Below, piece by piece: positions 13,969 through 29,471 of a DNA stretch of 35,326 nt. This DNA is from Bacillota bacterium (lineage in GTDB: Bacteria > Bacillota > Sulfobacillia > JAJZYS01 > JAJYTV01). Position 1 is the stretch's first letter; every line of letters starts with the position of its first letter. The notes beneath the pieces are model-generated. The model saw only the letters and a list, made by a program, of their open reading frames with translations. It was not told where the DNA came from and did not search any database. The position numbers and the translations under genes were made by a program. The stretch is taken from positions 1 through 35,326 of the forward strand of contig JAJYSZ010000026.1 of the NCBI GenBank assembly GCA_021793315.1, written 5' to 3'.

Positions 13969-15293
13969 CCCTGCCCGATTCCTTCAGGGGCCGGCGGGTC
14001 GCCCTGCTCGGCCTCGGCAGGGCGCACAAGGCGCTCGCTCAGGCCCTGCGGGTCGAGGGAGCCGAGGTCCTGGGCTTTGACCGCGACCCGGCCAAGGGCG
14101 GCCTGCTGGCCGACCTTGGCATCTCCGGGTCGTGCGGCGAAGGCTATCTTGAGGACGCCGTGCGCTCCCGGGCAAGCTTCTGCTTCCTGACGCCCGGCAT
14201 GCGCAAGGACATACCGGAGGTGCGCGCCCTGGTGGCGGACGGCTGCCAGCTGGCTGCGGAAGCCGGCTACTTCTTTGCGCGCCGCAAGGCAGCGGTGCTC
14301 GGCATCACGGGATCCGCGGGCAAGACGACCACCACGACGCTGGTCACCCGCATGCTGTTGCGCAGCGGCGTCGCCGCCACGGCCTGCGGCAACATCGGCC
14401 GCGCGTTCGCCGACGCCCTGCGCGACGAGGAGCGCACCGCGATCTATGTCGCGGAATTGTCGTCGTTCCAGCTTCAGCTGGTGGAGCAGAGTCCCGAGAT
14501 TGCGGCCGTTCTCAACATCCGGCCGAACCACCTGGACATCCACCCGAGCTTCGAGGACTACGCCCAGAGCAAGTGGCACATCGCCCGCTACCAGCGGCCG
14601 GAGGATCTGCTCGTCCTGCCGCCGGACCTGCTCCCAGAGGCACAGGGCGCTGGGCGCCGCGCCACCTTCAGCCTGGCGGGGCCCGCCGCCGCAACCATCC
14701 TGGCGGGCCAACTGACGCTCGACGGCGAGCCGCTGATGGCTGCCGAGGAAGTGCGGCTGCCGGGCCGCCACAATCTTGAGAATGCGCTCGCCGCAGCCCT
14801 CCTGGCGCGGGCGGGCGGCGCCAGGGCGGAGGACATCCGGGAGGAGCTCAAGACCTTTTCGGGCGTGCCGCACCGCCTCGAGCTCGTCGCCGAGTCGAGC
14901 GGCGTACGCTTCATCAACGACTCGATCGCGACGGCACCGGACAGGACACTCGCGGCGTTCGCGGCCATCGCGGGGCCGCTGCTCTGGCTTGGTGGCGGCT
15001 ATGACAAGCATCTCGACTACGGGGTGCTCAAGGGCCACCTGGCGGACGTGCGCCGGGCCTTCCTGTTCGGCCCCGTCGGTCGCCTGCTGCTGCCGGTCTG
15101 CCAGGGGGACGGAGTGCCCGCGCAGATCTATCCGGACTTCGCCGCAGCCGTTGCGGCCGCCATCGGCGCGGCGGCGCGGGGCGAGACGGTGCTGCTCTCG
15201 CCGGGCGCCGCTTCCTACGATGCCTTCCGGGACTTCGAGCAGCGGGGCGAGGCATTCCGCAAGCTGGTCACGGATGCCCTGACACCCCGCTGA
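13965..15293 (+). CDS. murD: UDP-N-acetylmuramoyl-L-alanine--D-glutamate ligase MurD, variant
   Basis: A 442-residue Mur ligase adding D-Glu to UDP-MurNAc-L-Ala during peptidoglycan precursor synthesis. It has an N-terminal Rossmann domain (VALLGLGRAHKALA), the ATP P-loop GITGSAGKTTTTTL, the central AELSSFQLQL and NIRPNHLDIH motifs, and a C-terminal domain with NDSIATAPDRT and LGGGYDKHLDY. Most MurDs read GTNGKTT and NDSKATN; this variant resembles the NDSIAT form I associate with Chloroflexota-like and some deep Bacillota MurD proteins. The gene stands away from a dcw cluster. It overlaps aspB by four bases and runs 26 bases into the convergent region-2-like gene. Confidence 0.9.
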
Positions 15294-15591
15294 GCGCGCG
15301 GGAAGGCTGTGCCAGCCCGGGCCTTCGCTTGGCTTTCGGCCCATGCGCCCGGTCAGACCGGACCGTGGCCTGTCCTGCCGCGGCGGGCCTGAATCTGGAT
15401 GCGGCCTGCAGCAACTGAAAGCGGATGTCCTCCTCGACGTCCTCGCGGTAGGATTGCGGGGCTGCGGATGCCATGCGCCGCACGAGCGGAGCGAAGCGTC
15501 GCAGGATCAGCTGCAACGCCGCCTCGTCGCCGCGCCCTGCGGCCAGGACCGCGTTCGCCGGCCCGGGACCGACGTCTGGCCAGCTACTCAT
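15268..15591 (-). CDS. Sigma region-2-like partner protein (RsoA/HTH_16-like)
   Basis: A 107-residue protein whose middle (about residues 18-67) reads GDEAALQLILRRFAPLVRRM and then EDVEEDIRFQLLQAASRF. This is the helix pattern of sigma region 2 as found in short HTH_16/RsoA-type proteins that supply the core- and -10-binding half of a split sigma factor. The last 40 residues are basic and low-complexity. It starts with ATG 15591 eight bases inside the end of the region-4 gene, so the two are coupled. I infer a two-subunit sigma factor with that neighbour, as for SigO-RsoA of Bacillus subtilis. The match is by pattern, not by alignment, and the function is untested. Confidence 0.62.
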   Translation of the reverse strand: MSSWPDVGPGPANAVLAAGRGDEAALQLILRRFAPLVRRMASAAPQSYREDVEEDIRFQLLQAASRFRPAAAGQATVRSDRAHGPKAKRRPGLAQPSRALSGVSGHP

Positions 15592-15958
15592 GGTTTTCCT
15601 TCCCGTCGGCGAGGAGTTCGCGCAGGTGTCCGAGGGCCTGGCGCCTCAGCTGGCTGACCCTGGCCTGCGACAGGTGGACGGCCGCCGCGATGCGACGTTG
15701 CGGCCAGTCCGCGACGATGCTGAGGAAGAGGATTTGGCGCTCCGCGAGAGGCAGCATCCGGAAGGCCAGGCGCAGGTCCATGACCATGTCCTGATCTTCG
15801 GTGGCGAGTGCGGCGAAGTCCGGCTCCGGGGCGTCGCTGTCCGCTGAGGCTCGCAAAAGCTCGCGCGCGTAGCGGTTGTAGTCCACGGCGGCGCGACGTC
15901 CGGCGCGACGGATGGTCACCTCGATCCAGCGCAAGGCAGCGAGGTCTGGCTGCCTCAT
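15584..15958 (-). CDS. Sigma-70 region 4 protein, probable half of a split sigma factor
   Basis: A 124-residue protein with a sigma region 4 domain in its C-terminal half (about residues 55-118). DLRLAFRMLPLAERQILFLS is followed by the helix-turn-helix RRIAAAVHLSQARVSQLRR that would read a -35 element. The N-terminal 45 residues (RWIEVTIRRAGRRAAVDYNR) do not resemble a region 2 domain, and the protein is far shorter than an ECF sigma (about 170-200). Its ATG overlaps the membrane-protein stop (ATGA) and its end overlaps the region-2-like gene, giving a complementary pair. It is likely an RNA-polymerase specificity factor; targets are unknown. Confidence 0.75.
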   Translation of the reverse strand: MRQPDLAALRWIEVTIRRAGRRAAVDYNRYARELLRASADSDAPEPDFAALATEDQDMVMDLRLAFRMLPLAERQILFLSIVADWPQRRIAAAVHLSQARVSQLRRQALGHLRELLADGKENHE

Positions 15959-16242
15959 GCCGAGGGCCCCTTTCGTCCTCGGACCTGAAGACGGTCGACC
16001 ACTCCGTGCACGCCCGCCAGCGCCGCCGCCGCGACCACGAAGCCGTTGAGAGTCAGAAGGACGGCGCTTTGCGCGGTCACGCTTGTCTGCAGCCAGCCGC
16101 CGGACCAGACGACGAGTTGGGAGATGACGAGGATGACCGGCGCCCTGGGCAGCGTCGCTCTCAGTTGGTGGAGGACGAAGTAGACCGCAGAGGTCACCGT
16201 GGAGGCACCGGCGAGCGTGAGCAGGTCATGAGCTTGAAACAT
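15955..16242 (-). CDS. Small three-helix membrane protein, holin-like
   Basis: A 95-residue hydrophobic protein with three predicted membrane helices: about residues 8-27 (LAGASTVTSAVYFVLHQL), 34-52 (APVILVISQLVVWSGGW) and 60-83 (AVLLTLNGFVVAAAALAG). A basic tail RLQVRGRKGPSA follows. Size, helix number and charged end are those of class I holins and of UviB/TcdE-type proteins, but no specific family is certain. It is the first gene of the riboswitch-led operon. Holin-like genes beside special sigma factors are known in clostridial toxin and bacteriocin loci (TcdR/TcdE, UviA/UviB), where they serve release. An alternative is a membrane anti-sigma or sensor for the split sigma factor. Start ATG 16242 follows GGAAGGGG. 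Confidence 0.68.
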   Translation of the reverse strand: MFQAHDLLTLAGASTVTSAVYFVLHQLRATLPRAPVILVISQLVVWSGGWLQTSVTAQSAVLLTLNGFVVAAAALAGVHGVVDRLQVRGRKGPSA

Positions 16243-16293
16243 GGCGCATCCCCTTCCGCTTCCTGCGTGCCGGTCCGCGCCAGGACGGGAAAG

Positions 16294-16314
16294 GGCGGGC
16301 GCCGAGGTCCCGCC
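16294..16314 (-). promoter_or_regulatory. Hairpin in the riboswitch expression platform
   Basis: On the minus strand GGCGGG, nine bases, CCCGCC and then CTTTCCC lie between the aptamer and the first gene. It could be a weak intrinsic terminator. The 8-mer GGCGGGAC at its 5' side is repeated in the aptamer's third stem, so alternative pairing is possible. Confidence 0.45.
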
Positions 16315-16330
16315 ATGAGAACGTACTTTC

Positions 16331-16430
16331 CGTAGCCCTGGTGGCCAGGCTGTCTTGTCCCGCCTGGCGGGACGTAGACCCTATAGCTTTGCGTCCCCGG
16401 CTTTCGCCGGGTTTGCCGTGAGCAGGGTGG
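16331..16430 (-). ncRNA. c-di-GMP-I (GEMM-I) riboswitch
   Basis: The minus strand shows the GEMM-I core: CACGGCAAACC, a CGGC-GAAA-GCCG stem with GNRA loop, then GGGACGCAAAGC, with the stacking adenosine in GCAAAGC. A P3 stem (GTCCCGCC/GGCGGGAC) is followed by AGACAGCCTGGCCACC, aligned to the AGC-GGGGUUACC end of the Vibrio Vc2 aptamer. P1 closes as CCCTG with CAGGG. The base equivalent to Vc2 position 20 is G, which favours c-di-GMP over cAMP-GMP, where A is expected. The aptamer lies 88 bases upstream of the holin-like gene and in the same direction, so it should control the three-gene sigma operon. Confidence 0.92.
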
Positions 16431-16525
16431 ACAATCGGGTTGCGAACGCCGCCGCCCGGTGGGCCGCACCTCCTTCTACCTAACAAGAAGCGCGGTGGGC
16501 TGAAAGTGATCAGTGCCAGGAAAAT

Positions 16526-29285: not shown

Positions 29286-29302
29286 ATGCTGTTCGCGGAC
29301 CC

Positions 29303-29410
29303 TCTTATCTCTCAATCCGGCGGACCGGATTGCAGGAATTGGCACCGACGGCGCTGCGCGCCCGGTTGCCGGGTTTCATCGGGCCAGTCCCTCCACCTCT
29401 CGCGATAACA
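29303..29410 (-). ncRNA. SAM-I (S-box) riboswitch
   Basis: The minus strand carries the S-box core in order. P1 is TTATC pairing with GATAA. GAGAGGTGGAGGGACTGGCC is followed by CGATGAAACCCGGCAACC, then the P3 hairpin, GGTGCCAATTCC and TGCAATCCGG...CCGGATTGAGAGATAAG. All conserved elements of SAM-I are seen. It precedes the terminator and metY, so it should turn off metYX when SAM is abundant. Confidence 0.98.
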
Positions 29411-29471
29411 GGTGAGATATTGAGTTGTTCGGGCTGCCGCGGCCTGCCTCCCCTTCCACGAGATTGACGCC

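Follow-up and report, generated by a model that had tools for sequence, protein, structure and literature searches.

In the window, a stretch of 35,326 nucleotides that is one contig of a 3.5-Mb draft genome, a c-di-GMP-I riboswitch probably governs both a two-subunit sigma factor and a small membrane protein of holin-like appearance. As read from the sequence, the operon consists of three open reading frames on the minus strand downstream of the aptamer, which overlap by 4 and 8 nt. Its features, in the direction of transcription, are as follows.

16476-16512 (-): 37-nt block TGATMA...TAGGTAG, a likely promoter or leader element (comparison of upstream sequences)
16336-16427 (-): c-di-GMP-I (GEMM-I) riboswitch aptamer (Rfam RF03167 and RF01051; aptamer alignment)
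16294-16314 (-): hairpin GGCGGG...CCCGCC in a terminator-like position directly 3' of the aptamer (leader folding)
16288-16293 (-): CUUUCC, an alternative-pairing element and possible translational switch (leader folds)
16250-16257 (-): putative Shine-Dalgarno sequence of ORF1, GGAAGGGG (sequence and fold)
15955-16242 (-): ORF1, three-helix membrane protein of 95 aa, holin-like (AlphaFold2 model, viral fold search, distant homologues)
15584-15958 (-): ORF2, predicted SigO-like sigma subunit of 124 aa that comprises the end of region 2 and region 4 (PF04545, TIGR02937, mapping onto L233)
15268-15591 (-): ORF3, predicted region-2 sigma subunit of 107 aa, RsoA-like (PF12645, PDB folds, mapping onto L233)

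The riboswitch and its leader

The earlier note on this DNA had proposed a complete GEMM-I aptamer on the minus strand, and the covariance search against the Rfam models bears this out. The general c-di-GMP-I model RF01051 reached 66.1 bits at 16337-16427 (-), against a gathering score of 35, and RF03167 (c-di-GMP-I-GGC) matched at 16336-16426 (-) with 60.7 bits, marginally above its gathering score of 59 (E 4e-12). In a residue check on the alignment, the canonical ligand-contact bases were found in the window aptamer, namely the equivalents of G20, A47 and C92 in the numbering of Vc2. The alignment of 22 aptamers places a G at the last base of J1/2, corresponding to G20 of Vc2, and the 3' end reads ACC. 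It also places an A where the GGC model prints a G, and this core-position G instead of A is presumably the source of the variant's name. As this G is absent, the window aptamer looks, despite its best Rfam name and the marginal pass of its score, like a member of the ordinary c-di-GMP-I class and is treated as such.

Further riboswitches were noticed in the same genome. A c-di-GMP-I aptamer with a terminator precedes the gene of a secreted protein with S-layer-homology-like repeats, which is cut by the contig end (L009:965-1052(-), contig 23), and another is followed by transposase-like genes, its target gene probably being lost (L010:9815-9901(-), contig 134). The window itself also holds a SAM (S-box) riboswitch of 84 bits at 29302-29411 (-), before methionine-biosynthesis-like genes.

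The 37-nt block upstream of the aptamer has equal length in all five loci of the family despite differing flanks, its end diverging in L024. Downstream of the aptamer, the hairpin forms by free folding in most leaders. In the window and in the relatives L021 and L022, it occupies the same place and is poor in its U-tract; in most distant modules, it stands directly 3' of the aptamer with a clear U-tract. The adjoining CUUUCC is predicted to pair either with an upstream GGAAAG (16326-16331) or with the downstream Shine-Dalgarno sequence, and both elements are present in L021 and L022, too. Through this alternative pairing, control in these three loci could act on translation. The aptamer and the hairpin occupy separate stretches here, as in Cd1 of C. 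difficile, in which aptamer and terminator coexist and the ligand switches the gene off (PMC9262584); the class I switches of this organism are mostly OFF switches (PMC6200980). Based on this precedent and on the non-overlapping aptamer and terminator, we lean to the view that the operon is OFF at high c-di-GMP.

The sigma subunits and the membrane protein

In profile searches with the three proteins, as proposed earlier, two gave matches over curated cut-offs, namely ORF2 with Sigma70_r4 (PF04545, 2.9e-8) and ORF3 with HTH_16 (PF12645, 2.4e-5); ORF1 had no family match. ORF2 aligns with positions 57-165 of the 165 positions of TIGR02937, and its homologues in L021 and L023 exceed the cut-off of this model over positions 57/58-165. 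The region-2 relatives match the N-terminal 50-80 residues of models for ECF sigma factors. About 70 conserved residues of ORF3 are followed by a lineage-specific tail, and its AlphaFold2 model reaches a pLDDT of 76 overall and of about 95 in the conserved part. In a fold comparison with the PDB, structures of sigma region 2 head the list (probability 1.00, best E 0.06).

Where the sigma factor is cut can be read from locus L233 (genome G520), where a single fused sigma factor of 205 aa stands behind a c-di-GMP-I aptamer with an atypical 3' end and matches TIGR02937 over its full length (1-165, 4.8e-17). The ORF3 profile maps onto residues 6-66 of this protein (5e-8) and the ORF2 profile onto residues 80-195 (3.5e-9), which places the cut inside region 2; by these alignments, ORF2 and ORF3 tile one whole predicted sigma factor. 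The short region-2-like protein of the earlier note is thereby substantiated, and from its 'region-4-only' sigma protein the Sigma70_r4 domain stands, while the word 'only' has to be dropped because ORF2 also holds the end of region 2. As in the SigO-RsoA type, regions 4 and 2 are divided between two proteins encoded together, and a SigO/RsoA-like two-subunit sigma factor is the best reading of the pair. ORF3 scored 14.1 bits with the RsoA equivalog model NF041489, far under its cut-off of 100, and is therefore called RsoA-like here and not filed as RsoA.

For ORF1, the three membrane helices proposed earlier for this protein of 95 residues reappear as three long helices in the AlphaFold2 model, which is of moderate confidence (pLDDT 73). 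Judged by model and hydropathy, size and number of helices fit a holin, for which two or three membrane helices are expected. Among viral structures (BFVD), the top four matches are annotated as holins, with a best E of 0.11, which is non-significant, a probability of 1.00 and a TM of 0.77. The holin family phrog_1129 was reached weakly by 4 of 11 ORF1 relatives (best E 0.0047), and not by ORF1 itself. Of the parts of the earlier interpretation, 'holin-like' is the one with the least support.

Recurrence in the family and across the Bacillota

Homologues similar to ORF2 over the full length were found in five of ten family genomes, and the rest of the order has none; the operon is absent from the other five, two of which are less than 85% complete. 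A scan of genome contigs gave close homologues in four MAGs only. All five family loci have an aptamer upstream, over the cut-off in the window and the four relatives, and a region-2 gene downstream. A GTPase gene and a murD-like gene flank the operon in the window, L021 and L022, and in L023 and L024 the flanking genes differ, giving three neighborhoods in all, so that the operon moves or survives as a unit. ORF1 of the window is 84, 80, and 53% identical to its counterparts in the family loci with a membrane gene, and in L021 to L024 the identities are 74, 71, 50, and 50% for ORF2 and 65, 65, 43, and 46% for ORF3. L024 keeps aptamer and sigma pair and has no membrane gene; the membrane protein is therefore dispensable there. 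A decayed second region-2 copy (E 2.6e-13) was noticed beside a transposase-like gene in the genome of the window (L075:1444-1704(-), contig 117).

For the phylum, an even draw of 398 genomes was used, and the surroundings of short HTH_16 proteins were searched with our own covariance model. Thereby, nine further loci with an aptamer directly before a region-2/region-4 pair were detected (G482, G324, G418, G491, G261, G334, and three in G428), and the distant loci were confirmed with Rfam's own models. In G324, part of the sigma genes is masked in the record, and one of the three G428 loci has a broken region-4 gene. One more case comes from G134 (L139), a genome from a different family of this class, in which genes for a SigO-like protein, YvrJ and an RsoA-like protein follow a c-di-GMP-I aptamer, bringing the split-sigma loci with aptamer beyond the family to ten. 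Roughly half of the remaining split-sigma loci lack a riboswitch, e.g. those of G258, G173, G375, G505, G217, and G231. Aptamers were present at 10 of 20 split-sigma loci; in the background sets, they were present at 3 of 70 loci with YvrJ and at 0 of 20 with long HTH_16 proteins. Fisher's test gave a P of 8e-7 (about 1e-6) when loci are counted and of 2e-4 when families are counted, values which, because of hand-assembled counts and convenience controls, indicate strong enrichment and are not exact probabilities.

The proteins of the distant modules are related to those of the window, with profile E values of 4.7e-6 for ORF1 and of 1.7e-9 and 1.2e-8 for the other two, and scores of 35-59 versus at most 18 in shuffles. 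The association of aptamer and genes, for which a synteny check had been proposed, is hence conserved, and distant genomes show it again with relatives of each of the three proteins. In G482, G418, G491, and G428, the same operon encodes a protein of 101-105 aa with three hydrophobic stretches, and in the G334 module the membrane protein is divergent. Compared with the distant membrane proteins, the ORF1 profile aligned over 81 columns at 31% identity with a score of 35; the scores of 60 column shuffles did not exceed 16, and the reversed profile scored 12. When all ORFs of 58 loci were searched, the ORF1 profile matched only the membrane proteins of the distant modules and the corresponding gene in the TM-RsoA-SigO locus of G258. 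The recurrence of the same parts in unrelated Bacillota suggests a dedicated c-di-GMP-controlled gene programme.

YvrJ was rejected as a marker of the module since it occurs mostly in other clusters, in which a sigma gene is accompanied by genes that we liken to DUF1659/DUF2922, and where a riboswitch, if any, drives a downstream HD-domain gene. In L150 and L156, a c-di-GMP-I aptamer lies directly 3' of such a sigma-...-YvrJ cluster and drives an HD-domain (HD-GYP-like) gene. A c-di-GMP-I aptamer at L215:2609-2701(-), which lies some 300 nt upstream of Tn916-like genes for sigma and HTH_16 proteins, was left out of the counts because two terminators lie between the aptamer and the sigma-like gene. 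Serine-recombinase-like genes near the modules in L267, L268, L270, and L273 suggest mobility of the module. The region L271:6158-12785 contains a diguanylate cyclase gene, two c-di-GMP-I aptamers and the split-sigma module, followed by Agr-type-like peptide quorum-sensing genes.

Proposed function, alternatives and known systems

In the proposed mechanism, binding of c-di-GMP would alter the fold of the leader and thereby set read-through or translation of the operon. ORF3, as the core-binding part of region 2, and ORF2, with the end of region 2 and region 4, would assemble on RNA polymerase, and the resulting sigma factor would transcribe promoters of its own. The membrane protein may open or destabilize the membrane, or release a leaderless wall enzyme or protein in the manner of a holin. 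No endolysin gene adjoins the operon of the window. In one G428 locus (L268), the aptamer is followed by the genes for the membrane protein, region 2 and region 4, in this order, and then by that for a leaderless Amidase_3 protein (5e-44); in G491, a leaderless protein of 277 aa without family match follows the module; and in G482 (L271), a GGDEF gene (7e-50) lies upstream of two aptamers and the module. Taken together, the distant homologues, the holin-like folds, the amidase of L268, the leaderless protein of G491 and the GGDEF gene of G482 support a putative release or lysis function of the module. We tentatively go one step further: many Bacillota may possess a chromosomal non-phage module of c-di-GMP riboswitch, two-subunit sigma factor and holin, in some cases with a leaderless wall amidase, for gated lysis or holin-dependent secretion, although we give this generalization somewhat less than an even chance.

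Other readings apply to each part of the operon. Instead of forming a pore, the membrane protein might serve the split sigma factor as its sensor or anti-sigma partner, so that c-di-GMP would control a membrane-tethered regulatory circuit. Small membrane proteins do stand beside split sigma factors elsewhere (YvrJ in L139 and L112), ORF1 overlaps translationally with the sigma genes, and YvrL is a partner of SigO-RsoA of the sensor or anti-sigma type; in the literature, yvrJ and oxdC-yvrL are listed as SigO-RsoA targets. ORF1, however, matches neither YvrJ nor any other Pfam family, its best fold matches are holins, and the L268 homologue shares its operon with a leaderless amidase, so that we consider a mere regulatory partner rather unlikely and prefer a holin-like protein. 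It is distinctly unlikely, in our judgement, that the module was left behind by, or recruited from, a mobile element or a prophage lysis cassette and is now decaying, without a coherent function today. The serine-recombinase-like genes adjoining several distant modules would fit such an origin, as would the decayed copies (the region-2 remnant L075, L024 without membrane gene, and a broken SigO gene in L248) and two c-di-GMP-I switches of C. difficile that sit in prophage lysis modules (PMC3649979). Yet the window, L021 and L022, where the operon stands between housekeeping genes, keep all three frames open at 65-84% identity. ORF2 and the distant region-2 protein have no relatives in the viral contigs of IMG/VR, and ORF2 has no match in phage records, which speaks against a phage origin.

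The sigma pair could also consist of common DNA-binding regulators like ORF7 and ORF8 of Tn916 that form no working sigma factor. HTH_16 is also the family of conjugative-transposon proteins, and the low score of ORF3 with the RsoA equivalog would agree with this, but the two pieces tile a complete sigma factor, a fused homologue exists in L233 and the folds matched by ORF3 are those of sigma region 2; we thus regard such regulators as very unlikely and retain the two-subunit sigma factor. As to the ligand, the best Rfam label would allow the ligand of the GGC variant, and 3',3'-cGAMP would fit the aptamer of the relative L024 (4948-5039), in which an A replaces the G at position 20. This G20A change confers cGAMP binding on GEMM-I (PMC6274999); with a coverage of 1.3x in the L024 record, a sequencing error may lie behind it. 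In the window, both G20 and A47 are present as in ordinary c-di-GMP-I aptamers, which makes another cyclic dinucleotide highly improbable.

If c-di-GMP control of a split sigma factor and a holin-like protein holds, the second messenger acts on the RNA encoding both sigma halves, and one riboswitch could therefore move a whole regulon. For most sigma factors, release depends on anti-sigma proteins or on proteolysis. The holin-like protein, together with the amidase in one genome and the diguanylate cyclase in another, would then form a direct route from c-di-GMP to lysis or release of leaderless proteins, which is relevant to the release of biofilm matrix and DNA. The module also offers a clear point, inside region 2, at which a sigma factor is divided into two chains. 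Each part is of a known kind; what appears to be new is how the parts are combined, that this set recurs and where the sigma factor is cut. In open-access papers, no description of a c-di-GMP riboswitch combined with a split sigma factor and a holin was found; the closest described cases are the flgB-sigD switch and two prophage lysis-module switches of C. difficile.

In TcdR/TcdE and UviA/UviB, a special sigma factor is encoded beside a holin-like protein and linked to the release of leaderless proteins. The window operon shares this arrangement, but TcdR and UviA are single-chain group 5 sigma factors without a riboswitch; assignment to group 5, which requires a single-chain sigma factor beside a holin gene, was rejected as the sigma factor of the window is split. 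In the same genome, a c-di-GMP-I aptamer directly precedes a small pilin-like gene and a tad-pilus-like operon (L011:7140-7225, contig 8); it belongs to the same aptamer class, but controls structural pilus genes and not a regulator. The same class is also found in C. difficile, where sigD lies within the riboswitch-controlled flgB operon and two switches lie in lysis modules of the PhiCD119 type (PMC3649979, PMC6200980). There, the riboswitch reaches a whole flagellar sigma factor deep in a motility operon, whereas the window operon consists of a split sigma factor and a membrane protein only. SigO-RsoA likewise has region 4 and region 2 on separate small co-encoded proteins and is tied to the small proteins YvrJ and YvrL. 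The pair of the window falls outside this family by the NCBIfam cut-off, and the oxalate decarboxylase link of SigO-RsoA is not seen for it; instead, a c-di-GMP riboswitch heads the operon, and its membrane protein is of another, holin-like kind.
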